The notes below the pieces were generated by a model. The model ran no database searches, was not told where the DNA came from, and saw only the letters and a list, made by a program, of their open reading frames with translations. Positions 7,662 to 29,923 of a stretch of 36,226 bases of DNA are shown piece after piece. How positions within the stretch are numbered: position 1 is the stretch's first letter; each line of letters opens with the position of its first letter. Source of the DNA: an uncultured Sphingomonadales bacterium (GTDB taxonomy: Bacteria > Pseudomonadota > Alphaproteobacteria > Sphingomonadales > Sphingomonadaceae); contig CAIWFP010000043.1 in assembly GCA_903911985.1 (NCBI GenBank), positions 1 to 36,226 on the forward strand, given 5' to 3'. The position numbers were made by a program, and so were the translations under genes.

Positions 7662-8705
7662 ATGAATGCGACCGCATCAGCGGCAAACGAGCCTTTCCAA
7701 CTGTTTAAGCGCGCTGGCAGCGCCAAATGGTGGGTCAGGTTCAGCGTCAAGGGGCAAGGCCAGATCAGACTGAGCCTCGCCACCGACGACGAGGCGCAGG
7801 CCCGACGCAAAGCCCAGGAACAGTGGTTCGAAGCGAACTATCGGGCAAAGCAGGGCATCACTGCCGTCGGCAAAAACTTCGCGCAGGTAGCCGAGGAATT
7901 TATCGAACAGGTTGAGCGCGAGGCCGAACGCGGCGAGCGCACCAAGGATCAAGGACAACGCTTCCCGGCGTTGATCCGGCGCTACTTCATCCCCTTCTTC
8001 GGCAACCGACCCGTCGATGCGATCACGGATAAGGATGTTTATCGCTATCAGGAGTGGCGCAAATCGTACTGGACCACCGGCCCCGGCAAGGACATCCAGT
8101 TCATCGAATACAAGCGCGGCGGCAAAATGCTCCGCCGCCCGGTCGGTGACATGCGCCGCCTGTCCAGCCTCAGCAGCCAGCGCAGCGAAGCCGTCGTACT
8201 GCGCCAGCTCTTCCGACAAGCCGCTCGTTGGGGGCACATCAAGCAAAGCTCGATCCCGGAAGTTGATGCGCCGAAGGTGCCACCCTCTGCCCGGCCCAGC
8301 TTCGATTACGAAGAATTCCAGCGCCTCAGCGAAATCAGCCTCAAGCGTTTGGCCGATACCGATGTGAATGGCCACGTTCGCCGCGACCGAACGGTTCTGC
8401 ATTGCTTCATGATGATCGCCGTGTTCACCGGGATGCGCCCAACCGAACTCAAGCGTTTGTGTTGGGGAAATCTTCGCGGCTATCGCGAAACACGCCAGCG
8501 CCCGATTGGCGAGCGCGACATCACCATCCGCGCACATGGCAAGGGCAAGTCGCGTGAATTTATCCCGCAGCAAGGCTGCATCCCGTGGTTCGACATGCTC
8601 TGGCAACTCTGGATCGAAGCGCAAGGCGTTGAGCCGACTGATGACGACGCCGTGTTCGCTGGCGAGGACGGCAAGCGCATCGGCACCTTTCGCAAGGGCC
8701 TGTGA
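7662..8705 (+). pseudogene. Tyrosine recombinase/integrase, 3' truncated by an insertion sequence
   Basis: Phage-type integrases recombine an island's attachment site with a tRNA gene. The product begins at ATG 7662 and shows a SAM-like N-terminal domain and then the catalytic domain with the first active-site arginine in FTGMRPTELKRL (about residues 259-270) and the Lys-bearing beta-hairpin region near IRAHGKGKSREF. The frame ends at residue 347 with FRKGL and a TGA that is probably the first bases of the IS end. The second catalytic box (HxLR), the third His/Trp and the nucleophilic Tyr are all absent, so the protein cannot be active. The adjacent tRNA-Phe is the expected target. Confidence 0.85.
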
Positions 8706-8760
8706 AGTGGCCCGGTATTTCCGACAGGTTGGCGGCTGAAATAAGCTCTCCAGCCTGATG

Positions 8761-9435
8761 TTACGCCGCCAGTTTGGTTTTCAGATCAGGTGGGGCATGC
8801 CCCACCTGATCTGAAAAATCGATTTGCTCATATGCCTCGGTAGGGGTTCGTCCCGCAAGGGTCGAATGTGGACGGTGGTTGTTGTAATAATCAAACCATC
8901 GACCCACCCCGTTGCGCAGGTCGGAGCCGGTCTCGAAATCGTTCAGGTAGACGCACTCGTACTTGAGCGATCGCCACAGCCGCTCGATGAAGACGTTGTC
9001 CATCCAGCGGCCACGACCATCCATGCTGATCTTGATATTGGCGGCCTGCAGTACGCCTGTAAACGCGAAACCGGTGAATTGACTGCCTTGATCGGTGTTG
9101 AAAATCTCTGGCTTGCCGTAGCGTGCTAGGGCCTCCTTCAGTGCCTCCACGCAAAAGCCGACATCCATCGTATTCGACACCCGCCAGGCTAGAACTTTGC
9201 GGGTGGCCCAGTCCATGATCGCGACCAAATAGAGAAATCCCCGCCGCATGGGCAGGTACGTAATGTCGGTACACCAGACGTGGTTAGGCCGCGTGATCGC
9301 CAATTTACGCAGCAAATACGGGTAGATCCGGTGCTCCGGGTGCGGATCGCTGGTCCGTGGGCGCTGATAAATCGCCGCAAGACCCATCTTGGCCATCAAG
9401 CGTCGCACGCGGTGGCGACCAACCTCATTGGACTT
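8761..9435 (-). pseudogene. IS3-family transposase OrfB, N-terminally truncated
   Basis: About 224 residues remain of a transposase normally near 270-290. All three catalytic acidic residues are present: WCTDITY, FNTDQGSQFT and VFIERLWRSLKYE. The RHRVRRLMAKMGL helix that precedes the domain is also intact, after which the sequence changes to the next IS fragment. GTG at 9408 could start a shortened product, but no ribosome site is evident. The final residues, FSDQVGHAPPDLKTK, are encoded by a perfect palindrome (8778-8817), so the C-terminus may not be ancestral. Confidence 0.8.
8778..8817. repeat. Perfect 40-bp palindrome in the transposase 3' end
   Basis: The two 20-bp halves are exact reverse complements with no spacer; the centre is GGGGCATGCCCC and the outer ends are TTTT and AAAA. 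On either strand the RNA would form a GC-rich stem followed by a U-run, so it can act as a bidirectional terminator. It lies in frame inside the last codons of the IS transposase. Confidence 0.85.
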
Positions 9436-9721
9436 GTGACGGTTTTGTGCCGGTCACCTATTTCACTATGCCACCTTGGCTTCGAATGCGAGCGGGCTGA
9501 TGCCGCCCAGATATGAATGGCGCCTACGCGGATTGTAGAAGCCGTTGATGTACTGAAAGATGGCGGTCTCGGCCTGGCGGCGGGTTGGCCAATTCTGGCG
9601 CCAGAGCACTTCGGCCTTCAGACTTTTGAAGAACGTCTCGACCGCTGCATTGTCATAGCAGTTGCCCTTGCCTGACATGGACGGGACCAGCTTGTGGGCC
9701 TGCAGCTTCTTCTGGAAGTCG
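9436..9721 (-). mobile_element. Fragment of a second IS3-family element (transposase C-terminus)
   Basis: The minus strand encodes the last ~85 residues of another IS3-type transposase: QKKLQAHKLVPSMSGKGNCYDN, AAVETFFKSLKAE with the final catalytic Glu, then YINGFYNPRRRHSYLGG and a stop at 9466. The two catalytic Asp residues and all upstream sequence are missing. The 30 bp left of the stop codon (about 9436-9465) probably form the IS terminus. On the right it is fused within a few bases, near 9720, to the nirB coding sequence, so a deletion has joined the two. Confidence 0.75.
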
Positions 9722-10080
9722 TAGGCGGCAATGGCGGGATCAAGCTGCGCGGCACCGACCTGTTGTGCAAAGTCGTTACCGAGGCCGAGGTGTTGGAGGT
9801 GTGCACCGCATTCATCCAGCTTTACCGCGAACAGGCCTATTATCTGGAACGCACCGCGCCGTGGATTGAACGGGTCGGGCTGGAAACGGTCAAGGCGGCG
9901 CTGTTCGAAGATGCCGGGTCGGTGGCACGGCTGGCCGCCGCGTTTCGCCATTCGCAAAGTTTCATGCAACACGATCCGTGGGCCCGGCTCGCCGCCGGGG
10001 CAGACGCCGAACTGCACCAGCATCTGGCCGAGGTGCGACCCAATCCTGCATCCGCCGTCATCATGGATGGCGCCAAGTGA
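9718..10080 (+). pseudogene. nirB: Nitrite reductase large subunit NirB, C-terminal remnant
   Basis: NirB is the NADH-dependent assimilatory nitrite reductase large subunit, about 800 or more residues, with FAD, iron-sulfur and siroheme centres. Only about 120 C-terminal residues remain, recognisable by VGGNGGIKLRGTDLLCKV, FIQLYREQAYYLERTAPWIERVGL and the AAFRHSQSFMQHDPWA region. The flavin domain and the siroheme-binding cysteines are lost; the left side is replaced by an IS fragment. No start codon or ribosome site is apparent. The stop overlaps the start of nirD. Confidence 0.85.
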
Positions 10081-10559: not shown

Positions 10560-13025
10560 TCAGCGGACCTTGAAACTGACCGTTACACCATACGTGGCAG
10601 GCAGGCCGGCGTAGCGCGATGTAAAGTCGAAGCCGGTGCGGACGTTATTCCAGTAATATTTGTTGAGCACGTTCTTGCCCCAGAACAGCACCCTCCAGCT
10701 TTCATCCTCGGGCCCATAGCCAAGCCGCGCATCAAGCGTGGCATAAGCGTTGGTGGTAAACGGATGGACCAGCCCCGGCAGGACACGGTTGGCAGGCGAT
10801 GCGGGAACAACGATGCCCGCTCCACCCGGGGTGGTGTCGGATTGCGAACGGCCCGCTACGGTGAACCCGACGAACGGCCCGCCGCGCGCCTTGCCATTCA
10901 ATCGGTAATCGGCACTGAAAGTGTAATTCCAGTGCGGTGCAAACGGCAACGCACTGCCAGCGAAATTGGTTTGCTGGCCCAGGGTGTCGGTGCCGGTATA
11001 TTCGGTGACCTTCGTATCAAGATAGGTGACTGCCGCGTTCAGCGCCAGGCCGGGGGTCGGCCGGACCGACAGGTCACCCTCCAATCCGAAGATATGCGAT
11101 TTTGGCACGTTGGTCAGCACGTCGAGCGTGCCAAACACCGGGTCCTGCAATTTGCCCAGCACCTGCTTGTTGCCATAGTCATAATAGAACACTGCCGCGT
11201 TCAACTGCGCCTTTTTGTCCCACAGGCCGAGCTTTACGCCGCCTTCAAACGCCAGCACGGTTTCCTGCCGGGCGGGCGCATATTGCGATGTCGTCGATGC
11301 CGCAAGATTGGGAAAGCTGCCCGCCTTGTACCCGCGCGATGCATTGACATAGACCAGCGCGTTGCTGTCGATGCTGTAATTGGCACCTGCGGTCCAACTG
11401 AGGTTGTGTTCGTCAAGCGTCCCCTGTGTCGGGGCCAGGCTGGGCTGGAATCCGGTCAGAACGCCGCCGGTAAAGGCCGGCGTTTCGGCATAGCAGCGCT
11501 GGTTATAGGGTGCGCCACCGGCCGCCGCGTTGGCCAGCCAATGGGCATTGCCACCACCGCTGAAAGCATTGGTCAGCGCGCCGCCAAGCCAATCGAACAG
11601 CGTGTTGATCAACCCGTCACCATCATCAAATCCGCAGATGCCGGCATTGTTTTTGCTTTGTGTATAGCGCAGGCCGCCTTTCAGCGTGAATTCTGGCGTC
11701 ACCTTGTATTCGGTATTGCCGAAAACCGCATAGTTTACGATTTTCTGTGTTTCGATCGTTGCGCCACGGGTGATGTTGAAAAACCCTGGGTTGCTGTTGG
11801 AATCATCGGCGTAGGTGTTGTCCTGAATTTCAAAGGTCTTGCTGTTTTCATAGTTGCCGCCGACGATCCAGTGCAGCGCCGAACCATTGGTGTTGGCCAC
11901 GCGCAATTCCTGGTTGAACGACCGGATCGTGCCGTTGTTGACCGCGATGTCAGCGACATTCAGCGACGACCCATCCGAATCGACTATCTGCGACTGCTTG
12001 AAATCGATGTACGACGTCAGCGAAGTGACCGTGATCGCGTCGGTCAGCTTAAGGTCTGTGCGCAGCGCCGCCTGATAGAACGTGCGGCTGCTTTGCGGCG
12101 CAGTGGCAGAGGTCCAGTCGGCCGAGCGTGGATTGGCATCCGGGAATGGATAGGCCAGTTCCTGCGCCTTCACGTTGGCGGGGCTTTGCGGGAACAGCGC
12201 GATGAATTGGCCGGCCTGCGGCTGCGATGAATCGTGCCATGCGTTCAGGTTCAGCGCAAATTTCAGAGTCGAGCTGGCATCCCAGTCAAGCAGCAGGCGG
12301 CCTGCGACATAGCTGGTTTTGCCATTGCGGTCCTGCGGGTGGGTCTTTGCAATCTGCCAGCCGTCGGAATTTTCACCATCGACCGCGACCCGCGCGCGCA
12401 ACGTGGTGGACAGGGGCACGTTGATATAGGCGTTGGCGTGGATATCGCTGAAACGGCCGAGCGACAGATTGCCGCCGGTTTCAAAATGATCCACCGGTTT
12501 GGCGGCGATGTTGTTGATCGCACCCCCGGTCGAATTTTCGCCAAAGAGAGTCCCCTGCGGCCCCTTCAGCACTTCGATCTGCTGCAGGTCATACGACGAA
12601 TGGCTTGCCAGCACCGGAAACGGCAGCGGCACCTGGTCGATATACACGCTGACTGCCGGATAAACGCCCAGCGAGCTGTCGTTGTAGCCGACGCCGCGCA
12701 GCGTGAGAATCGGAGTGTTGGTCGACGAATGGGCGAATTCCAGGCCGGGCACCGCTGCGGCGATATCCTGGATAGTGTTGATCCCGCGCGATCTGATAGC
12801 GTCACCGGACAGGGCGGTAATGGTTGACCCGACTTTGTTGAGTCGTTCTTCGCGCTTGTTGGCGGTGACGATGATTTCAGCCGGGCTGTTTGCTGATGCA
12901 TCAGCCGGTTGTGCCTCCGTGCCGGCTGCTGCGGCCTGGGCATGGGCGTCAACCGCCAGCAGAGGTGAAGACAGTGTTACAGACGTTGCACAAAGCAATG
13001 CAACCTTCACAAAACCAGCATTCAT
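10560..13025 (-). CDS. TonB-dependent outer-membrane receptor, island copy 1
   Basis: An 821-residue outer-membrane transporter. ATG 13025 is preferred over TTG 13043 because GGGGGA lies about 8 bases upstream. The signal peptide ends near AVDAHA, followed by a TonB-box-like EIIVTAN and the plug (VPGLEFAHSS, TPILTLRGVG, YIDQVPLPFP, LKGPQGTLFGENSTGGAIN). The barrel shows alternating aromatic strands to the end, which here is Arg rather than the usual Phe. It is a clear paralogue of the receptor at 19526-21952: long blocks such as NKREERLNKVG and SSLGVYPAVSVY are identical or nearly so. Receptors of this shape in sphingomonads often sit beside catabolic genes and carry the substrate; the ligand is not known. 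Confidence 0.88.
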   Translation of the reverse strand: MNAGFVKVALLCATSVTLSSPLLAVDAHAQAAAAGTEAQPADASANSPAEIIVTANKREERLNKVGSTITALSGDAIRSRGINTIQDIAAAVPGLEFAHSSTNTPILTLRGVGYNDSSLGVYPAVSVYIDQVPLPFPVLASHSSYDLQQIEVLKGPQGTLFGENSTGGAINNIAAKPVDHFETGGNLSLGRFSDIHANAYINVPLSTTLRARVAVDGENSDGWQIAKTHPQDRNGKTSYVAGRLLLDWDASSTLKFALNLNAWHDSSQPQAGQFIALFPQSPANVKAQELAYPFPDANPRSADWTSATAPQSSRTFYQAALRTDLKLTDAITVTSLTSYIDFKQSQIVDSDGSSLNVADIAVNNGTIRSFNQELRVANTNGSALHWIVGGNYENSKTFEIQDNTYADDSNSNPGFFNITRGATIETQKIVNYAVFGNTEYKVTPEFTLKGGLRYTQSKNNAGICGFDDGDGLINTLFDWLGGALTNAFSGGGNAHWLANAAAGGAPYNQRCYAETPAFTGGVLTGFQPSLAPTQGTLDEHNLSWTAGANYSIDSNALVYVNASRGYKAGSFPNLAASTTSQYAPARQETVLAFEGGVKLGLWDKKAQLNAAVFYYDYGNKQVLGKLQDPVFGTLDVLTNVPKSHIFGLEGDLSVRPTPGLALNAAVTYLDTKVTEYTGTDTLGQQTNFAGSALPFAPHWNYTFSADYRLNGKARGGPFVGFTVAGRSQSDTTPGGAGIVVPASPANRVLPGLVHPFTTNAYATLDARLGYGPEDESWRVLFWGKNVLNKYYWNNVRTGFDFTSRYAGLPATYGVTVSFKVR

Positions 13026-13439
13026 TTGGTAATCCCCCAGCAAATTTCTTTATTTCGGCGTAAGCGCAAGACATAAGCTGCAAACGCATACCCAACTGTG
13101 CGCAATAATAGAGCGTTGAATTATCCTGACTATCAGATGTTTTAAATGAATTGATCTGTTAAATTGATCAATAATGTCGAATTTTAGCGCAGGACGCGAC
13201 CGCGGAATCCGTCTCTCTGCCCGGGCCGTGCGGCGGCATTGTTTTCGGGCCATAGCCGACAACATCGGCCTGAGAGGCTTGCGCAATGCCGTTTTGATGT
13301 CGCTGCGATGGCCTGGTCACCGGCACGGGGTCGGATCGCTGATTTATAGAAAATATCGATAGATACGTTCAGACTTCGCCATTGTTTGAAGCGCGCGGGT
13401 CAGTGAAAGAACAGCGGACCAAACAGAGGTATGCTGACA
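13026..13439. other. Divergent intergenic region between receptor 1 and catabolic unit A
   Basis: This 414-bp region has no convincing gene. Its left half (13040-13180) is AT-rich compared with its surroundings and contains the LysR-type box described separately. The right half is GC-rich up to about 13330, then turns AT-rich again at 13340-13390. Promoters for the receptor gene and for the lyase-CoA-transferase unit should lie here. Short frames in it lack ribosome sites and family resemblance. Confidence 0.6.
13150..13172. promoter_or_regulatory. LysR-type operator candidate, ATTGAT-N11-ATCAAT
   Basis: ATTGAT at 13150-13155 and ATCAAT at 13167-13172 are exact inverse repeats separated by 11 bases, fitting the T-N11-A consensus of LysR-type regulator boxes. 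The same stretch also reads as a direct repeat of AATTGATC at 13149-13156 and 13162-13169. It is 125 bp upstream of the receptor start and about 270 bp upstream of the lyase start. Two LysR genes lie in the cluster. Confidence 0.5.
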
Positions 13440-14393
13440 ATGTCTGATAAATCCATGGGATCTGATGCTGGCACTCGGTTCCGGCTGCAACGATCAGAGC
13501 TCGCGGTACCAGCAACGTCCCTGCCTTTTTTCGAAAAGGCGGCACGCGGGCCGGCGGATTCGCTGTTTCTGGATTTGGAGGACGCGGTCGCGCCACAGCG
13601 CCGGGATGAGGCGCGCGAAAATGCAGTGCGTGCGCTTAATGATATCGATTGGGGAACCAAGACGGTGTCGGTCCGGGTCAATGGCTTGGGCACTCGCTGG
13701 GCCCTTGCCGATATTCTGGCGGTGGCGCGCTGCCCGCGGCTGGACATGATCCTGCTGCCCAAAGTGGAAACCGCCGGCGACGTGGTGTTTCTTGACCGGC
13801 TGTTGACCGGGCTGGAACTGGAACTGCCGCGCCAGCGCCCGCTCGGCATCGAAATCCTGATCGAGACCACCAAGGGCCTCGCCAATGTAGAGGCAATCGC
13901 CGCCTCTTCGCCCCGGCTGGAAGGGATCATTTTTGGCGTGGGCGATTATTCGATCGAGCTGGAAAATTTTGACACTGTGTTCGGTGCGCCCAACCCCGAA
14001 TACCAGGTCGCAGGCGCACAGGGTGACCAGTGGCACTTTGCGCTGGCACGGATCGCCAATGCCTGCCGCGCCTATGGCTTGCGCCCGATCGACGGGCCAT
14101 TCACCAACTATGGCGATCCCGATGCCTATCGCGCCAGCGCCATCCGCGCGCGCGCACTGGGTTTCGAAGGCAAATGGGCGATCCACCCCAGCCAGGTGGC
14201 GATCGCCAACGACGTGTTCACGCCCAGCGCTGCGCAAATCGCCTGGGCACGCGATATCGCGGCCAAAATGGATGCGGCGGCCGAAGAGGGCAAAGGCGCC
14301 ATCGGCTTTGAAGGCGTGCTGATCGATCGGGCTCACGTCCTGCTTTCGGGCAAGATCCTGCGCCGCGCGCGGCTTGCCGGGCTGGAGTCCTGA
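13440..14393 (+). CDS. HpcH/HpaI aldolase / citrate-lyase-beta-like CoA-ester lyase 1
   Basis: Members of this TIM-barrel family (malyl-CoA, citramalyl-CoA, citryl-CoA lyases) cleave 3-hydroxyacyl-CoA diacids to acetyl- or propionyl-CoA plus a 2-oxo acid using a divalent metal. Visible motifs: FLDLEDAVAP with metal-binding acidic residues, SVRVNGLG, ILLPKVE, IETTKGLANVE, GIIFGVGDYS, DGPFTNYGD and the conserved KWAIHPSQ near the C-terminal lid. ATG 13440 is chosen because AGAGG is 10 bases upstream; ATG 13431 is in frame but too close to it. Length (317 residues) is normal. It starts unit A and is 2 bp from the CoA-transferase, whose product it probably cleaves. The actual CoA ester is unknown. 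Confidence 0.88.
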   Translation: MSDKSMGSDAGTRFRLQRSELAVPATSLPFFEKAARGPADSLFLDLEDAVAPQRRDEARENAVRALNDIDWGTKTVSVRVNGLGTRWALADILAVARCPRLDMILLPKVETAGDVVFLDRLLTGLELELPRQRPLGIEILIETTKGLANVEAIAASSPRLEGIIFGVGDYSIELENFDTVFGAPNPEYQVAGAQGDQWHFALARIANACRAYGLRPIDGPFTNYGDPDAYRASAIRARALGFEGKWAIHPSQVAIANDVFTPSAAQIAWARDIAAKMDAAAEEGKGAIGFEGVLIDRAHVLLSGKILRRARLAGLES

Positions 14394-14395
14394 TC

Positions 14396-15592
14396 ATGGC
14401 CGGGCCGCTTGAAGGTATTCGCGTGCTCGACATCGCCACGTTTGTGGCTGCGCCGTTCTGCGGCACGATCATGGCCGAATTTGGTGCCGAGGTGATCAAG
14501 ATCGAACAGCCGGGCGAAGGCGATTCACTGCGCCGGTTCGGCACGATGACCGACAGCGGCGACACGCTGGTGTGGCTGAGCGAGGCGCGCAACAAGAAAT
14601 CGGTAACGCTGGACTTGCGCACCCCCGAAGGCGCCGCCATGTTCCGCCAGTTGGTGGCAAAGGCGGACGTGGTGCTGGAAAATTTCCGGCCGGGCACGAT
14701 GGAAAAATGGGGCCTGGGCTATGCCGCGCTGGCCGAAATCAACCCCCGGCTGGTGATGCTGCAGGTCAGTGCCTATGGCCAGACCGGTCCGCTGCGTGAC
14801 AAGCCCGGGTTTGCCCGCATCGCCCATGCGTTCAGCGGCCTGGCCTATCTGGCGGGTGAACCCGGCCGACCGCCGGTGGTGCCGGGATCGACCTCGCTCG
14901 CCGATTACATGTCGGGGCTGTTTGGCGCGGTGGGCGTGCTGATGGCATTGCGCCATGCCGAACGCACCGGCGAAGGCCAGTCGATCGACATTGCGCTGTA
15001 TGAATCAATCTTTCGCGTGCTGGATGAACTGGCGCCGGCCTATGACAAGTTCGGGTATCAGCGCGAACGCATGGGGCCCGATACCGTCAACGTCGTCCCG
15101 CACAGCCATTACGAAACCCGCGACGGCGCCTGGGTGGCGCTGGCCTGTTCCAACGAACGGATGTGGGAACGGCTGTGCAAGGCCATGGCCCGGCCCGACC
15201 TGATCACCGATCCGCGTTATGCCAGCACGCGCCAGCGCGACGCTCACCGTGCCGAGGTCAACGGCATCGTCGCCGACTGGGCGCGCAGCATGGACGCCGA
15301 TGCCCTGTTGGCGGTGTGCGATGCCAACGACGCACCCGCGTCAAAGCTGCTGAACATCGCGGACATTTTTGAAAACCCGCAATATGCCGCGCGCGAAAAC
15401 CTGCGCACGATCGACGACCCGCGGGTTGGCCGGCTGGTGGTGCCGGGGCCGCTGCCGCGCATGTCGCGCACCCCGTCGGAATTGCGCACGGCCGGGCCGG
15501 AACTGGGCAGTTCGAACGCAGACATTTACGGCGAACTGCTCGGCATCGATGCCGACATGCTGGCCGACCTCAAACAACGCCGGATCATCTGA
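14396..15592 (+). CDS. Family III (CaiB/BaiF) CoA-transferase 1
   Basis: Family III CoA-transferases move CoA from a donor such as succinyl-CoA to a carboxylic acid, through an aspartyl-CoA intermediate. The 398-residue protein has the typical N-terminus (GPLEGIRVLDIATFVAAPFC), GAEVIKIEQP, the ENFRPGTMEKWGLGY block, and the candidate catalytic Asp170 in SLADYMSGLFG. The distal region around YESIFRVLDELAPAYDKFGY is also family-like. It begins 2 bp after lyase 1, and 26 bp separate it from the next gene. Pairing of such a transferase with a CitE-type lyase is known from malate/citramalate and itaconate catabolism, suggesting activation and then cleavage of a hydroxy-diacid; the substrate is inferred, not shown. 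Confidence 0.92.
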   Translation: MAGPLEGIRVLDIATFVAAPFCGTIMAEFGAEVIKIEQPGEGDSLRRFGTMTDSGDTLVWLSEARNKKSVTLDLRTPEGAAMFRQLVAKADVVLENFRPGTMEKWGLGYAALAEINPRLVMLQVSAYGQTGPLRDKPGFARIAHAFSGLAYLAGEPGRPPVVPGSTSLADYMSGLFGAVGVLMALRHAERTGEGQSIDIALYESIFRVLDELAPAYDKFGYQRERMGPDTVNVVPHSHYETRDGAWVALACSNERMWERLCKAMARPDLITDPRYASTRQRDAHRAEVNGIVADWARSMDADALLAVCDANDAPASKLLNIADIFENPQYAARENLRTIDDPRVGRLVVPGPLPRMSRTPSELRTAGPELGSSNADIYGELLGIDADMLADLKQRRII

Positions 15593-15618
15593 CCAGGCCC
15601 ATTACGGAGAGTTCACCC

Positions 15619-16956
15619 ATGACAACCGGTCGCCAGATGGCGCTTGTCGCATTCCTGCAGGCACAAAACTGCACCAACTTTCCCGCATCGTGGCGGCACC
15701 CGGCGGCGGTATCGGATTTTCTGACGCCCGAATATTATCGGCGGCTGGGCCGCACGCTGGAAGACGGCGCGTTCCATCTGGCGTTCTTTGACGACCGCCT
15801 GGCCATTCCCGATGTCTATGCCGACGATTTTTCGGTGACGATGCGCGAAGGCATCCGCGCGGTGAAGCTGGATCCGATGCTGTGCGCGATGACGCTGGGC
15901 AATGCGACCGAGCGGCTTGGCGTCGGGGTGACCTATTCGACCACGTATTACGAGCCGTTCCATGTGGCGCGGACGTTTGCCACCCTGGACCAACTGACCA
16001 AGGGCCGCGCGGCGTGGAATGTCGTGACCTCGCTCAACAGTTCGGAAGCGGCCAACATGGGCGCGCGCAGCGTGCTGGAACATGATCTGCGCTATGATCG
16101 CGCCGAGGAATTTCTGACCGTCGTGCGCGGTCACTGGCGCGGCTGGGATGATGATGCGCTGATCCTCGACAAGCAAGGCCTGTTTGCCGATCCTGATCGG
16201 GTGCGGCGGCTGGATCACAAGGGCGAATGGTTCCAATCGCGCGGGCCGTTCACCGTGCCGCGGTCGCCGCAGGGCGAACCGATCCTGATCCAGGCCGGGC
16301 AAAGCGGACGCGGGCGCCAGTTTGCCGCCAAATGGGGCGATCTGGTGTTCGTGATCTATCCCAACCTGAAAGTCGGCCAGAAATCCTACGCCGAATTCAA
16401 AGATGAGCTGGAAAAGCAGGGCCGCCCGCGCGATTCAGTGCGGATCGCCCCTGCGGTCTATACCGTTGTCGGCGAAACCCAGGCCCAGGCCGAAGACCGC
16501 CGCGCGGTGATCGATGCGTTGGTCAAGCCGATCGATGGACTGGTGCTGCTGTCCGAAGTGCTGAATTTCGACTTCGCCGCCAAAGGCTATGATGATCCCT
16601 TCACACCAGAGGAAATGGACGGGATTTCGGGCATCCAGGCGTTTCGTGACCGCGTCGTCACGCTGAGCGGCCGGTCCAATCCCAGCCCGCGCGATTTTGT
16701 GGAATTTACCCGGCGCGGCACGCTGGACGAATTTCCGGTGTTCATGGGTTCACCCAAACAGATCGCGGACCAGATGGAAGAATGGTTCGGCACGGCCTGC
16801 GACGGCTTTGTGCTGGCCGGCAGCGTTGCGCCCGGTGCCTATGAAGATTTTGTGCGGCTGGTGGTTCCCGAATTGCGCCGGCGCGGGCTGTTCCACAAGG
16901 GTTATGAAGGCGCGACCTTGCGCGAAAATCTGGGTATCCCCAAGCCGGTCTTTTGA
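15619..16956 (+). CDS. NtaA/SnaA/DszA-type flavin-dependent monooxygenase (luciferase-like superfamily)
   Basis: These enzymes use reduced FMN supplied by a separate reductase to oxygenate small organic molecules such as nitrilotriacetate, dibenzothiophene sulfone or pristinamycin precursors. The 445-residue protein shows the diagnostic region TLDQLTKGRAAWNVVTSLNSSEAANMG, an N-terminal NFPASWRHP, and PILIQAGQSGRGRQFAAKWGD in the second half of the barrel. GGAGAG precedes the ATG by 8 bases. It sits in unit A between the CoA-transferase and a LysR gene with very short gaps. No flavin reductase gene is in the window. The substrate is unknown; family members are often annotated too specifically. 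Confidence 0.9.
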   Translation: MTTGRQMALVAFLQAQNCTNFPASWRHPAAVSDFLTPEYYRRLGRTLEDGAFHLAFFDDRLAIPDVYADDFSVTMREGIRAVKLDPMLCAMTLGNATERLGVGVTYSTTYYEPFHVARTFATLDQLTKGRAAWNVVTSLNSSEAANMGARSVLEHDLRYDRAEEFLTVVRGHWRGWDDDALILDKQGLFADPDRVRRLDHKGEWFQSRGPFTVPRSPQGEPILIQAGQSGRGRQFAAKWGDLVFVIYPNLKVGQKSYAEFKDELEKQGRPRDSVRIAPAVYTVVGETQAQAEDRRAVIDALVKPIDGLVLLSEVLNFDFAAKGYDDPFTPEEMDGISGIQAFRDRVVTLSGRSNPSPRDFVEFTRRGTLDEFPVFMGSPKQIADQMEEWFGTACDGFVLAGSVAPGAYEDFVRLVVPELRRRGLFHKGYEGATLRENLGIPKPVF

Positions 16957-16968
16957 AGCACCAGCGCG

Positions 16969-17886
16969 ATGGCCAAAATCAATCTGAAGCTGCTGCGCGC
17001 ATTCGAGGCGGTTGCCCGCAACCGGTCGTTCACCGCGGCTGCCGGTGAGTTGCAGCGATCACAGGCGACCATCAGCAGCCAGGTCAGTGTGCTGGAACAA
17101 CAGTTGGGCGTGCCTTTGGTCGAACGGACATCGCGGCGGGTATCGCCAACCACTGCCGGCGCGGATCTGGCCGGCCTGCTTGCGCAGGCATTCACATTGA
17201 TTGATGATGGCATCGCTGCGGCGCGCAGCCATGCGGATGATCGGCGCAGGCGGATCGTGGTCGCCTGTGTGCCATCGTTGTCGGGCGTGCTGATGCCCGG
17301 CTTGCTGGCCGCTTATCGCACCAAAGACACGACGACGCGGATCGATCTGGAAGAGCTGACATCGACCGAGATTGTCGCCGCGCTGCTGGCTGATCGGGTC
17401 GATTTTGGCATCGGACCCTGCGCCACGCCGCTGCCCGCCGGCATTGCCTTTGCCGCTGCCATCGAAGAACCACTGCATGTACTGCTGTCGGCGCAGCATG
17501 TGCCGGCCGGGGCGACCGCAATGCCGTTCGCAAAGCTGGTGTCGCTGCCGCTGATTACCTTGTCAGGTTCGGTGCTGCTGCAGCGTGAACTGGAACAGGC
17601 GGCGGCGGCGCGCGGATTGCGGTTAAGCTCCCACAGCGAAGTGCGCCATGTGCAGACCGCGATCGGCATGGTTCAGGCCGGCGTTGGTGCGGCGGTGGTA
17701 CCACGGCTTGCCCTGCCCGCCAGTTTGAGCGCGGGACTGGTTGCGCTGCCGGTCAGCGATCCGGCAATGCTGCGCACGATCGGTATCATCACCCGCCATG
17801 GCACGCCGCTGCGATCGGCGGCGGCGCGTCTCGCCCGCTATGTTCGCAGTGCGCTTGCCGCAAAAAGCATGATCCCGCCGGCATGA
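16969..17886 (+). CDS. LysR-family transcriptional regulator 1
   Basis: A 305-residue regulator with the N-terminal winged helix-turn-helix (INLKLLRAFEAVARNRSFTAAAGELQRSQATISSQVSVLE, written here only as residues 4-43 of the protein; key part SFTAAAGELQRSQATIS) and a periplasmic-binding-like effector domain (IVVACVPSLSGVLMPGLLA and VDFGIGPCATP). It lies inside unit A, 12 bp after the monooxygenase gene, so it is probably co-transcribed with the genes it controls. Resemblance to the second LysR protein in both domains (CVPS near the domain start, FGIGP, QAGVGAAVVPR versus QAGLGVAILPR) indicates common descent. Its operator may be the ATTGAT-N11-ATCAAT box; that link is inferred. Confidence 0.93.
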   Translation: MAKINLKLLRAFEAVARNRSFTAAAGELQRSQATISSQVSVLEQQLGVPLVERTSRRVSPTTAGADLAGLLAQAFTLIDDGIAAARSHADDRRRRIVVACVPSLSGVLMPGLLAAYRTKDTTTRIDLEELTSTEIVAALLADRVDFGIGPCATPLPAGIAFAAAIEEPLHVLLSAQHVPAGATAMPFAKLVSLPLITLSGSVLLQRELEQAAAARGLRLSSHSEVRHVQTAIGMVQAGVGAAVVPRLALPASLSAGLVALPVSDPAMLRTIGIITRHGTPLRSAAARLARYVRSALAAKSMIPPA

Positions 17887-17915
17887 CCGGCATGCCCGTG
17901 ACCAAAGGACCCGCC

Positions 17916-18755
17916 ATGACCCACCGCCCCCGCCGCAGCGCGCTTTATCTGCCCGCATCCAACGCCAAAGCGATTGCCAAGGCGCGCACGCTGCCCTGCG
18001 ATGTCGTGATTCTTGATCTGGAGGATGCCGTCGCGCCCGATGCCAAGGCCATGGCGCGCGATCAGGCGGTGGCCGCCGTGAACGAAGGCGGTTTCGGGCC
18101 GCGCGAGATTGTAGTGCGGGTCAACGCGCTGGACACCGAATGGGGTGCGGACGATCTGGCGGCGCTGCATCTCTGCAGCCCCGATGCGGTGCTGGTGCCC
18201 AAGGTCATGCACGCGGGTGATGTTGATCACTATGCCCGGCACATGGCCGCAACGACGCCGATCTGGGCGATGATCGAAACCACCGCTTCACTGTTTCGGC
18301 TGGATACGATCGCCGGTGCTGAGCGGCTGACCGCGCTGGTGATGGGCACCAACGATCTGGCCAAGGAAACGGGCGCGCAACCGGGGCGCGATCGCCTGCC
18401 CTTTGTCGGCGCGCTGGGCCTGGCGGTGGTGGCGGCACGATTGCACGGCCGGGTGATTCTCGATGGCGTGTTCAACGGGATCGACGATGATGAAGGGTTC
18501 AGCGCGCAGGCGCGGCAGGCGGTTGAATTCGGCTTTGATGGCAAGACGCTGATCCATCCGCGCCAGATTGATCCATGCAATGCCGCGTTTCTGCCCGATG
18601 CGGCCGAACTGGCCTGGTCGCGGCAGATTATCGAAGCGTTTGATCGCCCTGAAAACCAGCAAAAGGGGGCGATCCGGGTCGATGGCAAAATGGTCGAACG
18701 GCTGCACCTGCACCAGGCGCACCGGGTGATTGCCGCAGCACTCCAGCCGGGGTGA
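17916..18755 (+). CDS. HpcH/HpaI aldolase / citrate-lyase-beta-like CoA-ester lyase 2
   Basis: A shorter paralogue (279 residues) of the CoA-ester lyase family. It shows RSALYLPASN at the start, the LDLEDAVAPDAK motif near 33-44, VVRVNALDTEWG, DAVLVPKVMHAGDV, WAMIETTASL, MGTNDLAKETG and GFDGKTLIHPRQI. ATG 17916 is used because AAAGGA precedes it and the family typically begins just before RSxLYVPA; ATG 17883, overlapping the LysR stop, is in frame but adds 11 atypical residues. It ends unit A and is read convergently with the GST gene. It differs enough from lyase 1 (shorter lid region, different central motifs) to suggest a different CoA ester. Confidence 0.9.
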   Translation: MTHRPRRSALYLPASNAKAIAKARTLPCDVVILDLEDAVAPDAKAMARDQAVAAVNEGGFGPREIVVRVNALDTEWGADDLAALHLCSPDAVLVPKVMHAGDVDHYARHMAATTPIWAMIETTASLFRLDTIAGAERLTALVMGTNDLAKETGAQPGRDRLPFVGALGLAVVAARLHGRVILDGVFNGIDDDEGFSAQARQAVEFGFDGKTLIHPRQIDPCNAAFLPDAAELAWSRQIIEAFDRPENQQKGAIRVDGKMVERLHLHQAHRVIAAALQPG

Positions 18756-18779
18756 GTGGACTGGCTGCGGCGCTGCGGA

Positions 18780-19451
18780 TCAGACGATCTTTTCGACCAG
18801 ATCGAACATGCGCGGGCCGGTCGCGTGCACCGATGGTCGGTCGCGGTGGTGCGCTTCAAACCGCACCAGATTGGGATAGAGCGTGGTCCATGGCGCGATG
18901 GCAGGATCGAATTGCTGCCACGCGGGGATCATCTGCGCCTCTGCCATCGTGTCCAGCGCGCCCAGCATGGCAATGACCGCGATATCGGCAAGGCCAAAGC
19001 GATCCCCCACCATGTATTCGAGGGTGCCGGCGCGCCGGTCGAGATCGGCCAGCCCGCCCCTGACCTTGCGCAGCTGGCGCCGGGTCCATTCGGCGCTGAT
19101 CACATCGCGCTGCATTTCCCAGAACAGCAGCACAAGCGCATCGACCACGCCTTCGGCAATGACATGCACCAGCCGCGCGGTCATCGCCAGATCGGGGTCG
19201 GCGGGCAGCATCGAGACTTGCGGGTATCTGTATTCCAGCCAATCCATCAGATAGGTCGATTCGAACACCGGATCGCCGTCGTCAGGGATCAGAATCGGCA
19301 GTTGTTCCAGCGGGTTATAGCGCGGTGTTAAAGTGTCTGCATGCCACGGCACTTCGTTCTGAACAACGAAGTCCACCCCCTTTTCGATCATCGCGATCCG
19401 CACTTTGCGTGCAAACGGGCTAGGGGTCGCGCTGATCAGGGTCAGGGTCAT
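18780..19451 (-). CDS. Glutathione S-transferase
   Basis: Soluble glutathione transferases conjugate glutathione to electrophiles or act as thiol isomerases and lyases. The 223-residue protein has the N-terminal thioredoxin-like fold with SPFARKVRIAMIEKG (a likely catalytic Ser near residue 11), the cis-Pro region LPILIPDDG and the glutathione-contacting ES pair in VFESTYLMDWLE, then an all-helical C-terminal domain with GDRFGLADIAVIAML. ATG 19451 is chosen because it starts exactly at the first strand; upstream in-frame sequence is atypical. It lies 75 bp downstream of receptor 2 and behind a hairpin. In a catabolic cluster it may detoxify an epoxide or other electrophilic intermediate; that is inference. 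Confidence 0.92.
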   Translation of the reverse strand: MTLTLISATPSPFARKVRIAMIEKGVDFVVQNEVPWHADTLTPRYNPLEQLPILIPDDGDPVFESTYLMDWLEYRYPQVSMLPADPDLAMTARLVHVIAEGVVDALVLLFWEMQRDVISAEWTRRQLRKVRGGLADLDRRAGTLEYMVGDRFGLADIAVIAMLGALDTMAEAQMIPAWQQFDPAIAPWTTLYPNLVRFEAHHRDRPSVHATGPRMFDLVEKIV

Positions 19452-19482
19452 GTCGCCTCCGGTTGTTCGGGATCGGTCTACC

Positions 19483-19516
19483 GTGGCCCGATACCCGCAG
19501 GCGGGCATCGGGCCAC
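19483..19516 (-). terminator. Hairpin between receptor 2 and GST
   Basis: A perfect 10-bp stem (19483-19492 with 19507-19516) surrounds a smaller CCCGC/GCGGG stem. It lies just past the receptor stop, so it could end or dampen transcription into the GST gene. No U-run follows on the minus strand. Confidence 0.5.
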
Positions 19517-19525
19517 TGCCAGTCA

Positions 19526-21952
19526 CTACATGGTAAAGCCGACGGTCAGGCCATAGGTGGCGGGCTTGCCAGCATAGCGGGCAGAGACATCGGATGTCGT
19601 GACAACGTTGGTCCAGTAATAAGTGTTGAGCAGGTTCTTTGCCCAGACCATTACCCTCCATCGCCCGTCCGGTCCTTCGTAGCCAATCCGGCCATCGACT
19701 GTGGCATAGGCCTTGGTCACAAACGGATTGATGAGGCCCGGCAGGATGCGGGTGGTCGGCGCGGGGGCTACAGTGATCGAGCTGCCCCCGGGGACGGTAT
19801 CCGATTTGGAATGCCCGTTGACGCTGACGCCAATAAAGGGCGCGCCACCGTTTTCAAGGCGGTGACGGTATTCCGCATTGATGCCATAATTCCAGCGCGG
19901 CGCGAACGGCAGGGCCTGGCCAGCAAAATTGCGGTTTGCCCCAATATAATCGACGCCGTTGTAGGTATCGATTTTCGCTTCGAGATAGGTCAGCGAGCCG
20001 CTGAGCGTCAGGTCGGGCGAGGCCTTGACCACCACATCGCCTTCAACGCCGAACACGTGGCTTTTGGGGATGTTGCGCAGCACGTCGAGCACACCGAACA
20101 CCGGGTCAACCGCCTTGGTCAGTACCTGCTTGTCGGCATATTTGTAATAAAACACCGCGCTGTTGAACTGAACCTTGCGGTCCATCAGGCTGGCCTTCAC
20201 ACCGCCTTCATAAGCGGTGACCGCCTCTTGCGTCACCGGCGTGTATTGTGATGTTGTCGCCGCCGCCAGAATGGGGAAGCTGCCCGCCTTGTACCCGCGT
20301 GACACGTTGATATAAAGCAACGCTTCCGGATTGAGCCTGTAATCGAGGCCAGCGCGCCACGACACGTTGCTTTGTGACAAAGTCTGTTTGACTTCATCGC
20401 GGTTGGGCACGTTCTGCGCGTTCAGCGGGTAACAGCGCCCCGCGACCGGGCCTGTCGAACCGATCGGGGTAAAGGTGGTGGTGCCGAGCACCCCGCCCAG
20501 AATGTTGAACAGCGTGGCCAGCCGGCCGTCGCCCGCATCAACTGCGCAGATTGTCGCGGCATCCCTGGTGTTGGTATAACGAATCGCCCCCTTCAGCGTC
20601 AGTTCCGGGGTCAGATCGTATTCGCCATTGGCAAAGAACGCATAGTTGCGGATCGATTGGCGGTTGAGCGCCACCGCCTGGAAAAAGTTGTTCAGCGGCG
20701 CGCTGTTGTTGGAATCGTTTAAAAAGGCCAGCCACTGCAATTCGCTGGTCGTGCTCTTTTCCAGATTGGCACCCAGCACCCAGCGAAATGCCGACTTGGC
20801 GATGTTGGACAGACGTAGTTCCTGGTTGAACGAGGTGATCCGCCCGTTGTCTTCCTGAAGGTCCGAGATCAGCAGCGCCGACCCGTCGTTGTCAGAGGTC
20901 TGCTTCTGGTCAAAGTGGTCATACGATGTCAGCGAGGTCAGCTGGATATCGCTGGCCACATTGATGTCGGCGCGGAACGCGATCTGGTAGAATTTGCGAT
21001 CGCTGCGCGGGGTATTGATGCCGGTAGCCCAATCGGCCGCCCGTGCGTTACCGGATGTGAACGGCACCAGCAGCTCTTCAGGGCGCACCGTTGACGGGGT
21101 CTGCGGTTGCAGCAGGATGAATTGCGCCGCCTGGGGCTGCGACGTGTCGTGCCAGCCGTTGACGTTCAGTGCCACATGCACTGCACTGCCCAGATCGCCA
21201 TCGATCAGAAAGCGGCCCGCGAGATAGCTTTGTTTGCCATTGCGGTCGGTCGGGCGGGTGTCGCTGATCTGCCAGCCATCCGAATTGAGCCCGGTGACCG
21301 CGACCCGCGCACGGAAGGAATTGCTGAGCGGACCACTGATATAGGCATTGCCTTCAACCTGGTTGAACCGGCCAAAGCTGACATCGCCGCCGGCTGCAAA
21401 GACCTTGGTCGGCTTAGCCGCGATGTAGTTGATCGCACCACCGGTAGAGTTCTGCCCGAACAGCGTGCCCTGTGGGCCTTTGAGCACTTCGATGCGTTCA
21501 AGGTCATAAGCAGAATGGCTGGCCAGCACCGGAAACGGCAACGGCGCCTGATCGACATAGACACTGACCGCGGGATAGACGCCCAGCGAGCTTTCGTTGA
21601 AGCCGACGCCGCGCAAGGTCAGGATCGGTGTGTTGTTGACGCTGGGGGCAAAGGCCAGCCCGGGCACGACTGCGGCAACATCCTGCAGCGAGGTGATCTT
21701 GCGCTCGTTAAGGTCTTTGCCCGACAGCACCGACACGGTCAGGCCGACCTTGTTCAGCCGTTCCTCACGCTTGTTGGCGGTGACGATGATTTCGCCAGGC
21801 TGGTTGTTGCTGTCCGCGTCGGCAGCGGGTTTGGGCGCCGCTGCGGCCGGGGACGCCGTTTGCGCGACTGCCGTTGAGGCGACGCACAGTGCAGTGGCAA
21901 GGCCAAGTAACCCGCCAGAGCTTCGAACATCCCGCAAGATGGATTTTGTCAT
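19526..21952 (-). CDS. TonB-dependent outer-membrane receptor, island copy 2
   Basis: An 808-residue outer-membrane transporter, paralogous to the receptor at 10560-13025. ATG 21952 is preferred since GGGAGAG lies just upstream and a signal peptide follows (LLGLATALCVASTAVAQ, cleavage after AVA). A TonB-box-like EIIVTAN precedes the plug, which contains VPGLAFAPSV, TPILTLRGVGF, YVDQAPLPFP and LKGPQGTLFGQNSTGGAIN. The barrel retains the same landmarks (DGWQIS, NGKQSYLAGRF, NVSRGYKAGSFP) as copy 1. Differences cluster in the extracellular loop regions, where ligand specificity would lie. It faces divergently from unit C and is likely controlled from the shared intergenic region. Confidence 0.9.
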   Translation of the reverse strand: MTKSILRDVRSSGGLLGLATALCVASTAVAQTASPAAAAPKPAADADSNNQPGEIIVTANKREERLNKVGLTVSVLSGKDLNERKITSLQDVAAVVPGLAFAPSVNNTPILTLRGVGFNESSLGVYPAVSVYVDQAPLPFPVLASHSAYDLERIEVLKGPQGTLFGQNSTGGAINYIAAKPTKVFAAGGDVSFGRFNQVEGNAYISGPLSNSFRARVAVTGLNSDGWQISDTRPTDRNGKQSYLAGRFLIDGDLGSAVHVALNVNGWHDTSQPQAAQFILLQPQTPSTVRPEELLVPFTSGNARAADWATGINTPRSDRKFYQIAFRADINVASDIQLTSLTSYDHFDQKQTSDNDGSALLISDLQEDNGRITSFNQELRLSNIAKSAFRWVLGANLEKSTTSELQWLAFLNDSNNSAPLNNFFQAVALNRQSIRNYAFFANGEYDLTPELTLKGAIRYTNTRDAATICAVDAGDGRLATLFNILGGVLGTTTFTPIGSTGPVAGRCYPLNAQNVPNRDEVKQTLSQSNVSWRAGLDYRLNPEALLYINVSRGYKAGSFPILAAATTSQYTPVTQEAVTAYEGGVKASLMDRKVQFNSAVFYYKYADKQVLTKAVDPVFGVLDVLRNIPKSHVFGVEGDVVVKASPDLTLSGSLTYLEAKIDTYNGVDYIGANRNFAGQALPFAPRWNYGINAEYRHRLENGGAPFIGVSVNGHSKSDTVPGGSSITVAPAPTTRILPGLINPFVTKAYATVDGRIGYEGPDGRWRVMVWAKNLLNTYYWTNVVTTSDVSARYAGKPATYGLTVGFTM

Positions 21953-22289
21953 GATTTTGCTCTCCCATTCGGGCCAGACCCGACTTTTCGTCGGGAACGC
22001 CACCGTTTCCCCATTTTTTCCGACGCTAACGGCCCCCATAAATCTATCAAGCGCGATTATCTGAAGAATTGATTGGAAAAAGGGATTTATCGTTGGGCGG
22101 GGAATGCGGTCGATGGCGGCACTTTGGCGCGGCCGGAACCGGCATGGCCGATTATGTTGCTAATTGAATTAATCATTGAGATAAATCTACTTGCCCGCGT
22201 AACGTGCGCTTCTTAAGTTTTTGCATCGGGCCAAGCCGCTTGCTGTGCCCCAGTGCGCCACATCCACTCTTTCGCCTCGGAACGTCTCG
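21953..22289. other. Divergent intergenic region between receptor 2 and unit C
   Basis: This 337-bp region holds no gene I can support. It has an AT-rich part with AATTGAT at 22067-22073, and TTGAT-N11-A from 22069 fits a weak T-N11-A box. A second AT-rich stretch (22150-22195) contains TAATTGAATTAATCATTGA, a near match to the same motif. Promoters for the receptor and the aldehyde dehydrogenase must be here. The 22010-22030 segment ends in a short T-run without a strong stem. Confidence 0.5.
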
Positions 22290-23774
22290 ATGAAAAATTA
22301 TGGCAATTACATCGACGGGCAATGGGTGCCACCGGTCAGCGGTCTGCATATCGAGACCGAAAATCCTTTTACGCGAAAGACCTGGGCCACGATTGCGCGC
22401 AGCGGACCAGAGGATGTGGAGCGTGCGGTCGCGGCCGCATCGGCCGCGTTCGAACAGGGCCCGTGGAGCAGGATGAGCGCGTCGGCCCGGGGCAAATTGC
22501 TGTGGCGGATGGGCGATCTGCTTGAGGCTAATGTGGAACGGCTCGCGCTGATGGAGACCAGCGACAATGGCCGCACATTGTCCGATATGCGCGGCATTGT
22601 GCGCGCGCTGGCAGACAATTTCCGCTATTTCGCCGGGCTGGCCGACAAAGTCGAAGGCGCGGTGCCGCCGATCGAAAAGGCGGACTATTTCAATTACACC
22701 CGCCACGAACCCTATGGCGTGGTGGCCGCGATCACCCCATGGAACAGCCCGCTGTTGCTGGTGGTGTGGAAACTGGCGCCGGGCCTTGCGGCCGGCTGCA
22801 CATTTGTCATCAAACCACACGAAGTTGCCTCGGTCGGCACGCTGGAACTGGCCGCACTGTTTGGCGAGGCCGGCTTTCCCGATGGCGTTGTCAATGTCGT
22901 TACCGGCACCGGTGCGGAAGTGGGTGAGGCGCTGGTATCGCACCCGAAGGTGCGCAAGATCGCCTTTACCGGCGGCGATGTTGCCGGGCGCGCGATTTAC
23001 CAGTCCGCTGCGCGCGATTTCAAACCAGTCACATTGGAGCTTGGCGGCAAATCACCCAACATCGTGTTTGACGATGCCAATCTGGATAACGCCGCCAAGG
23101 GCAGCGTGCTGGGCATGTTCAACACATCGGGTCAGGCCTGCATCGCCTGTTCGCGCGTGCTGGTACAGGACAGCATTTACGACGCCTTTATCGAAAAGCT
23201 GATCGCGCACACGGCCGTGGCGCGGTTGGGTGATCCGACCGACCCGGCAACCGAAATGGGGCCGATGGGTTGCCGCCAGCATTTCGACAAAGTGATGGGC
23301 TATCTCGACATTGCCCGCGACGAAGGTGCGACAGTGCTGCTGGGCGGAACCGCGGCACGGCGTCCCGGGCTGGAAGGCGGCTATTTCGTCGAACCCACCA
23401 TCCTGGGCGATGTCAGCAACACCATGCGCGTGGCGCGTGAGGAGATCTTTGGCCCGATCATGGCCGTGATCCGTTTCAAGGATGAAGCAGACGCCATCGC
23501 CATCGCCAATGACAGCGATTACGGGCTGGGTGCGGGCGTGTGGACCGAAAACATGCGCCGCGCCATCCGCGTCGCGCATCAGCTGGCAGCCGGGTCGGTC
23601 TATGTCAATTCCTACCGCGTGGTCAGCTATATGTCGCCGTTTGGCGGATACAAGAGCAGCGGGCTGGGCCGCGAAAACGGCGTCGAGGCCATCCGCGAAT
23701 ATCTGCAGACCAAAAGCGTGTGGTTTTCATTGAACGAAACGGCGCCACCCCCGTTTGGCAAGCCTTACGGCTGA
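22290..23774 (+). CDS. NAD(P)-dependent aldehyde dehydrogenase
   Basis: Oxidises an aldehyde to its carboxylate. The 494-residue protein shows every family landmark: AAITPWNSPLLL with the oxyanion-hole Asn152, VIKPHE with cofactor-contact Lys175, IAFTGGDVAGR, the general-base Glu250 in LELGGKSP, and the nucleophilic Cys284 in SGQACIACSR, then EEIFGPIMAVIRF and SPFGGYKSSGLGRENG. ATG 22290 matches the conserved NYIDGQWV beginning; the in-frame ATG at 22221 adds 23 unlikely residues. It opens unit C. In a lactone/ring-opening path an ALDH oxidises the terminal aldehyde of the opened chain, which fits the neighbouring oxygenase genes. Confidence 0.95.
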   Translation: MKNYGNYIDGQWVPPVSGLHIETENPFTRKTWATIARSGPEDVERAVAAASAAFEQGPWSRMSASARGKLLWRMGDLLEANVERLALMETSDNGRTLSDMRGIVRALADNFRYFAGLADKVEGAVPPIEKADYFNYTRHEPYGVVAAITPWNSPLLLVVWKLAPGLAAGCTFVIKPHEVASVGTLELAALFGEAGFPDGVVNVVTGTGAEVGEALVSHPKVRKIAFTGGDVAGRAIYQSAARDFKPVTLELGGKSPNIVFDDANLDNAAKGSVLGMFNTSGQACIACSRVLVQDSIYDAFIEKLIAHTAVARLGDPTDPATEMGPMGCRQHFDKVMGYLDIARDEGATVLLGGTAARRPGLEGGYFVEPTILGDVSNTMRVAREEIFGPIMAVIRFKDEADAIAIANDSDYGLGAGVWTENMRRAIRVAHQLAAGSVYVNSYRVVSYMSPFGGYKSSGLGRENGVEAIREYLQTKSVWFSLNETAPPPFGKPYG

Positions 23775-23820
23775 GTACCCGCGGGGCGTCGACGATAAAA
23801 ATCATGTGGGAGAGTGTGAA

Positions 23821-26723: not shown

Positions 26724-26747
26724 TACCAAGTCGCGCCAAGCGCAGCT

Positions 26748-26810
26748 CATACCGCCCCACCCGACCACCACAGCATGATGGTATCATTGGTGGTCGGGTG
26801 GGGCGGTATG
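26748..26810. terminator. Long perfect hairpin between unit C and LysR 2
   Basis: Positions 26748-26770 and 26788-26810 form a perfect 23-bp stem; the 17-nt loop holds a further 5-bp stem (ATGAT/ATCAT). It lies 25 bp after the BVMO-type stop and 44 bp from the convergent LysR stop, so it can end both transcripts. There is no U-run. Confidence 0.8.
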
Positions 26811-26853
26811 ACTGAACGTCAGTGCAACCCCATATGAACCTGAGCCGCGCCGA

Positions 26854-27765: not shown

Positions 27766-27875
27766 TATCAATTAACCCTGGGACCAGATGCCCGGCCGGT
27801 TCGCCAGCGGGCATGGCCAACCATCGTGACATGACCCGATGGCGTCAACGTCTGATTGCGCTTTGCTAGCCCGAA

Positions 27876-29634: not shown

Positions 29635-29923
29635 GCGTCCATCCTTATCATCGCTGCGTTGCGCAGCTTGGCCCGTCCGGCATGGCTTGATCGACTGCAC
29701 GAGCCGATCTGCCGGGCCATTTCACATAGCGTAGAGCGCACGCGGTAAACGCTCAATCGGATAATTTCAATTGATTGTTCTGATTGGCGAATGAGTGACA
29801 AATTGCGATCGAGCGCTGATAAATCTGTAAATCGAAATAGTCGTGTCGATTTGTCCGATTGTTGTACCACTCGAAGGTGCATATCCCTTTTCCGCTAATG
29901 ACCGATTATACGAGGCACAAAAG
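29635..29923. promoter_or_regulatory. Divergent promoter region between SDR 1 and unit D
   Basis: This 289-bp region holds no gene. AATTGAT occurs at 29769-29775 within the palindrome CAATTG, with a second GATTG nearby, echoing the LysR-type half-site of the other intergenic regions. The stretch 29755-29870 is AT-rich. It should contain promoters for the SDR-esterase pair and the second CoA-transferase unit. Confidence 0.45.

Follow-up and report, generated by a model that had tools for sequence, protein, structure and literature searches.

A putative LysR-type operator in divergent promoters of an apparent sphingomonad catabolic cluster and its probable assignment to the regulator LysR2

The cluster and its surroundings

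The window, which is the whole stretch of 36,226 nucleotides analysed from an uncultured Sphingomonadales bacterium, encodes proteins that were assigned with Pfam and NCBIfam to TonB-dependent receptors, CaiB-type CoA transferases, HpcH/HpaI-type CoA ester lyases, two LysR-type regulators, two luciferase-like flavin monooxygenases, an aldehyde dehydrogenase, a Baeyer-Villiger-type monooxygenase, an esterase, and short-chain dehydrogenases. This content looks like a sphingomonad catabolic cluster, the substrate of which is perhaps a cyclic ketone or terpenoid. The genes and the candidate operators, with their predicted targets, are as follows.

10560 to 13025, minus strand: TBDR1, TonB-dependent receptor (Pfam TonB_dep_Rec and Plug; start judged from the sequence), predicted left target of O1
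13150 to 13172, plus strand: putative operator O1, ATTGATCTGTTAAATTGATCAAT, T-N11-A, between TBDR1 (start at about 13025) and unit A (HpcH1 start at 13431)
13431 to 18755, plus strand: unit A, comprising HpcH1 (CoA ester lyase), CaiB1, LLM1 (FMN monooxygenase), LysR1, and HpcH2 (Pfam, NCBIfam), predicted right target of O1
16969 to 17886, plus strand: LysR1, paralog inside unit A, 36% identical to LysR2 (Pfam HTH_1 and LysR_substrate)
19526 to 21952, minus strand: TBDR2, predicted left target of O2 (N-terminal comparison with the ortholog in the same-genus genome G249)
22068 to 22090, plus strand: putative operator O2, ATTGATTGGAAAAAGGGATTTAT, between TBDR2 and ALDH; 10 of 12 dyad positions, shuffle p 0.017
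22168 to 22190, plus strand: second conserved dyad-like element, ATTAATCATTGAGATAAATCTAC, in the TBDR2/ALDH region, identical in G249
22290 to 26723, plus strand: unit of ALDH, LLM2, and BVMO (Pfam), predicted right target of O2
26857 to 27765, minus strand: LysR2, proposed cognate regulator, probable ATG start at 27765 (Pfam HTH_1 2e-23, LysR_substrate 4e-40)
29770 to 29792, plus strand: weak candidate operator O3, ATTGATTGTTCTGATTGGCGAAT, between SDR1 and CaiB2; 9 of 12 dyad positions

Intergenic boundaries were set with a codon-usage caller, as a simple ORF-based caller gave poor boundaries. TBDR2 probably starts at 21952, so that the longest-ORF start at 22039 would be 87 bp too far upstream, and the site at 22068 would therefore lie about 116 bp upstream of TBDR2, near the 125 bp that separate O1 from TBDR1. 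The distance from O1 to HpcH1 is long, at 259 bp vs about 100 bp in the same-genus genome G035. Both domains of LysR2, an N-terminal HTH_1 and a LysR substrate domain, score above the Pfam cut-offs.

Three relatives from the same genus carry all or part of the cluster: G239 has the cluster in a version that is 99.8% identical and evolutionarily uninformative, G035 has it rearranged and spread over three contigs, and G249 has the LLM1-HpcH2-GST-TBDR2/ALDH part. The genomes that share the nearly identical version (window 12962-27883; L032/L043/L044), G000 and G239, are assigned to different species of the genus; the likeness could stem from a recent acquisition that both share, or the same population could have been binned twice. 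On the left side of TBDR1, an integrase-like gene that weakly matches phage integrase, together with fragments of a transposase (rve), at 7662-10023, suggests a mobile boundary of the cluster. Other neighbourhoods of HpcH1 (CoA lyase) in the order were without the cluster. A module of CoA lyase, CaiB, and LLM monooxygenase is mobile on a Pseudosulfitobacter conjugative plasmid (L050:4179-7709), where it is accompanied by an IclR regulator; LLM1 neighbourhoods on Pseudosulfitobacter, Diaphorobacter, and Methylobacterium plasmids were rejected as footprints, as the LLM1 relatives there stand with other regulators.

The dyad at 13150 and its copies in divergent promoters

An earlier note on this DNA had described a perfect T-N11-A inverted repeat at 13150-13172, and sequence inspection bears this out: O1 matches the ATTGAT-N11-ATCAAT dyad at 12 of 12 positions, and its arms reach 7 bp (ATTGATC-N9-GATCAAT). 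A motif search found the exact dyad in a single copy, O1, in the 2.64-Mb assembly to which the window belongs, together with 1 additional site at one mismatch. In the 2.8 Mb of G035, the dyad occurs three times when up to one mismatch is allowed, and two of these sites are in promoters of this cluster: one in the HpcH1/SDR2 promoter (C184:2041), the other (C153:3588) preceding the CitSyn-LysR2 operon by 85 bp. End-to-end alignment of the regions upstream of HpcH1 in the window and G035 revealed no homology; thus, what is conserved there is the motif and not its position. Read as an RNA hairpin, the dyad is weak (-6.2 kcal/mol) and is followed by no T-run.

The note had called for a motif search here and in homologous clusters, and matrices built without any site from the window place 13150 first, and the G035 promoters carry the dyad with no more than one mismatch. 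A matrix made from the two G035 sites alone gives 13150 as the best window match at 32.7 bits, and its next matches (22068, 13146, 29770, 22151, and 29774) all fall in three divergent promoter regions, TBDR1/HpcH1, TBDR2/ALDH, and SDR1/CaiB2, which total 878 bp. When a site from Aminobacter (see below) is added to those from G035, 13150 is again the best window match at 29.9 bits. O2 is the second-best place in the window for the matrices without window sites, and O3 is third or fourth best with the G035 matrices; on its own, O3 is not significant (shuffle p 0.26). In the same-genus background, which comprised about 446 kb of readable DNA with the two sites chosen for matching set aside and six short contigs read as N, one comparable unselected place reached 16.6 bits and the following one 12.2. 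In the opposite direction, training on the sites of the window and Aminobacter gives a matrix that recovers the two G035 sites and adds another at C184:2196, in the promoter region that also holds C184:2041. Across these four sites (window, two G035, Aminobacter), five of the 11 spacer columns are invariant, and the spacer columns had played no part in finding the sites; the sharing has a P of 4e-5 vs local 11-mers and 8e-4 vs spacer composition. The operator consensus, which rests on the small number of four sites, would be about ATTGATCnGTTTnnnTGATCAAT.

The half-site AATTGAT or ATCAATT lies at 13149, 13162, 22067, 27767, and 29769, and within genes also at 30720, 34538, and 35619. The raw count by itself is unremarkable, 8 in the window vs 4.3 expected, since 10 of 100 shuffles also reach 8. 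The half-site is nonetheless concentrated in the cluster's three divergent promoter regions, where its density is 4.56/kb; the corresponding values are 0.13/kb for 194 intergenic regions taken from the two nearest genomes and 0.20/kb for AT-rich stretches of 300 bp (n = 17 only). Equal frequency in other AT-rich intergenic DNA, which the earlier note had named as speaking against its reading, is therefore not what is seen. Just three 7-mers are common to all three regions, among which AATTGAT has the lowest background, and shuffles of the two non-seed regions contained it in both in 1.25% of cases. GATTTAT/ATAAATC is enriched to the same degree and is probably a degenerate second arm of the dyad.

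Within the TBDR2/ALDH region, O2 lies in a block that is identical to G249 at 49 of 53 aligned positions; its left arm is not strictly conserved, as it reads ATTGTT, a one-base difference, in G249. For the second, weaker activation site that a LysR-type operator would have one to three helical turns away, the candidates are a conserved CTATC-n9-TATCT, with its centre 26 bp from O2, and a poorer CTATC near O1; no such element was found in G035. The element at 22168-22190 lies inside a 29-bp block that is invariant in G249 and is the best match in the entire 5.9-kb G249 contig (13.7-13.9 bits). The two nearly invariant blocks, 22042-22094 and 22166-22194, carry GATTTATC and its reverse complement GATAAATC, and ATAAATC/GATTTAT is present in these blocks and in the other two divergent regions.

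The half-sites that the earlier note had listed at 22067, 27767, and 29769 are all present. The one at 27767-27773 (minus strand) does not hold as an operator: it abuts the LysR2 start codons on their 5' side, where there is no divergent promoter, its best dyad is 6 of 12 (shuffle p 0.99), and we judge it to be a chance half-site. The sites at 13150 and 22068 are convincing candidates, and that at 29770 is a plausible one.

Relatives of LysR2 and the choice of regulator

In G035, the LysR2 ortholog is 52% identical, has a nearly identical recognition helix, and adjoins a site. Homologs at 37-47% identity are encoded on plasmids of Aminobacter, Variovorax, Cupriavidus, Paraburkholderia, Ancylobacter, Marinobacter, Agrobacterium, Neorhizobium, Roseomonas, and Rhizobium; this subfamily spans alpha-, beta-, and gammaproteobacteria, and the site itself was found in its alpha and beta members. 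In Aminobacter, ATTGATCCGTTTTTCTGATCACT lies between the LysR gene and a divergent dehydrogenase, and in Ancylobacter, Agrobacterium, and Neorhizobium, ATTGGT-N11-ACCAAT adjoins the LysR start. Scanned with the sphingomonad matrix, loci of 13-19 kb had their best match immediately 5' of the LysR gene in six of nine cases with 39-47% homologs and in none of eight with homologs at or below 38% (hypergeometric 0.007), a boundary at 39% that is partly post hoc because the grouping by identity was made after the first ten results were known. On the Paraburkholderia plasmid, the site upstream of LysR ranks second, behind an exact dyad, ATTGATCACGCAAATCGATCAAT, at 6915 (L116:6915-6937), which lies at the 3' end of the LysR gene and upstream of a GMC oxidoreductase. 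In Variovorax, the LysR gene (47%) and an LLM1 homolog diverge from each other, and only a weak match is found there (5.2 bits); as this score and that of the best Cupriavidus match (11.0 bits) are low, rank rather than score is the argument at these two loci. Upstream of six unrelated LysR genes, the dyad was matched at only 6-8 of 12 positions. Further close orthologs of LysR1 or LysR2 across the order and phylum were not seen among the matches listed.

LysR2 very probably docks at O1, since the same sequence adjoins LysR2 relatives in quite different bacteria, and this likely partner of O1 is encoded in the same catabolic cluster. The reading of O1 as a LysR-type box agrees with its T-N11-A register (exact at 13150-13172), with the location of the sites in the divergent promoters TBDR1/HpcH1 and TBDR2/ALDH, and with the apparent retention of the site alongside a LysR gene in G035 and among the plasmid homologs of LysR2. 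The earlier note had suggested a tie of the separate units to one regulator or to two related ones; the tie between units stands, and the choice narrows to LysR2 because conservation tracks the orthologs and homologs of LysR2, while LysR1 is missing where sites persist.

LysR1, binding the boxes alone or in competition with its paralog, is a possible but distinctly less likely partner. It is co-encoded with unit A immediately downstream of the promoter that holds the perfect box, it is 36% identical to LysR2, and the two recognition helices are equal at two predicted contact positions (Q, S). At E<=1e-40, however, LysR1 was found in G000 and G239 only among 196 genomes of the genus, and G035 keeps the sites with no LysR1 found downstream of LLM1, an absence that refers to the orthologous position in an 87% assembly. 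It is also not at the orthologous LLM1-HpcH2 junction in G249 (L098:1180-1360 vs window 16920-17960; assembly 87%), so that on this comparison LysR1 is a presence/absence gene in an otherwise collinear operon. No plasmid homolog was detected at E<=1e-30, which leaves LysR1 without footprint support. Somewhat less likely again is that LysR1, as a lineage-specific paralog, was recently inserted into a LysR2 regulon, with both proteins reading the same boxes and LysR1 tuning or antagonising LysR2 at the TonB-receptor and catabolic promoters.

A general LysR-type regulator would be a far less probable partner. OxyR is a LysR-type protein, and an exact ATTGAT-N11-ATCAAT copy lies at the ahpC promoter of G239, upstream of an ahpC/ahpF-like pair (C45:52944; L071:9944-9966), which is possibly an OxyR site. 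G239 also has a dyad with one mismatch where another LysR gene begins, a gene that diverges from a two-subunit CoA-transferase operon (C21:44533; L072:9533-9555); given these two copies, the arms of the dyad are not confined to LysR2. Against OxyR, conservation tracks LysR2 homologs at their own promoters in other genera, and an exact copy elsewhere is absent from both the assembly of the window and G035.

That the dyad and half-sites arose by chance from AT-rich promoter composition is very improbable. The raw AATTGAT count is near expectation over the whole window and a generic dyad with 6-bp arms is not rare in AT-rich DNA, but the leave-out matrices, the intergenic background, the shared spacer columns, and the cross-genus footprints all exceed chance; the dyad is real. 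Equally hard to credit is a non-LysR regulator, either an FNR/CRP-type protein (TTGAT-N4-ATCAA) or a GntR/MarR-type protein on the compact palindrome TTGATCAA, for although the half-site TTGAT/ATCAA is FNR-like and a 10-bp palindrome, ATTGATCAAT, occupies 13163-13172, the spacing is 4 for FNR and 13 in O1, and G035 and Aminobacter both keep the N11 dyad but not the central palindrome.

Proposed mechanism and comparison with known systems

As a classical LysR operator, the dyad can be assigned with good comparative support to LysR2 and to two or more of the cluster's divergent promoters. The compared sequences show that the dyad exists, is rare, recurs in divergent promoters, and is conserved with LysR2 relatives; we infer binding by LysR2, the geometry of its tetramer, activation rather than repression, and an inducer. 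A LysR2 tetramer would place one dimer on the symmetrical ATTGATC-N9-GATCAAT as its recognition site and reach from there to a weaker site close by, near the -35 region. The tetramer would then be shifted by a pathway metabolite so that it contacts RNA polymerase, and both diverging units, TBDR1 and HpcH1-CaiB1-LLM1-LysR1-HpcH2, would be turned on together. The copy at 22068-22090 and its conserved neighbour at 22168 would play the same role for TBDR2 and ALDH-LLM2-BVMO, and for SDR1/CaiB2 this role may fall to the weaker copy at 29770.

Such a mechanism is already well known, an ordinary type of switch that is here newly assigned to a regulator. The sequence ATTGATCnGTTTnnnTGATCAAT provides a testable operator consensus for the LysR2 subfamily, and the assignment predicts that a single regulator couples TonB-dependent uptake receptors to the adjoining catabolic operons, a coupling that would aid the search for the inducer and substrate of an uncharacterised sphingomonad pathway.

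The classical LysR-type box is T-N11-A, with an extended consensus CTATA-n9-TATAG in gammaproteobacteria (PMC5002191). O1 resembles it in being an interrupted dyad with T-N11-A in the same register, in its location in divergent promoters, and in being kept with a regulator; it differs in its arms, which are TGATC and not CTATA, in the position of the LysR2 gene, which ends one unit and is not divergent from the first target, and in having several predicted target promoters. The likeness to BenM/CatM lies in membership of a catabolic LysR family and in the T-N11-A dyad; these are the nearest solved LysR structures by sequence, and their relation to LysR2 is distant (phmmer 72 bits). The BenM/CatM operator is ATAC-N7-GTAT. 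The letters of the nod box core of NodD-type regulators, ATC-N9-GAT, are contained in O1, but no nod genes were seen in the window and the predicted targets of O1 are catabolic genes and TonB receptors. Closest in form is ATTGGT-N11-ACCAAT of Ancylobacter, Agrobacterium, and Neorhizobium, which stands beside LysR genes 39-44% identical to LysR2 and shares the spacing and most arm letters of O1, but has G for A at arm position 5 and other targets, tricarboxylate transporters in Ancylobacter and Agrobacterium.
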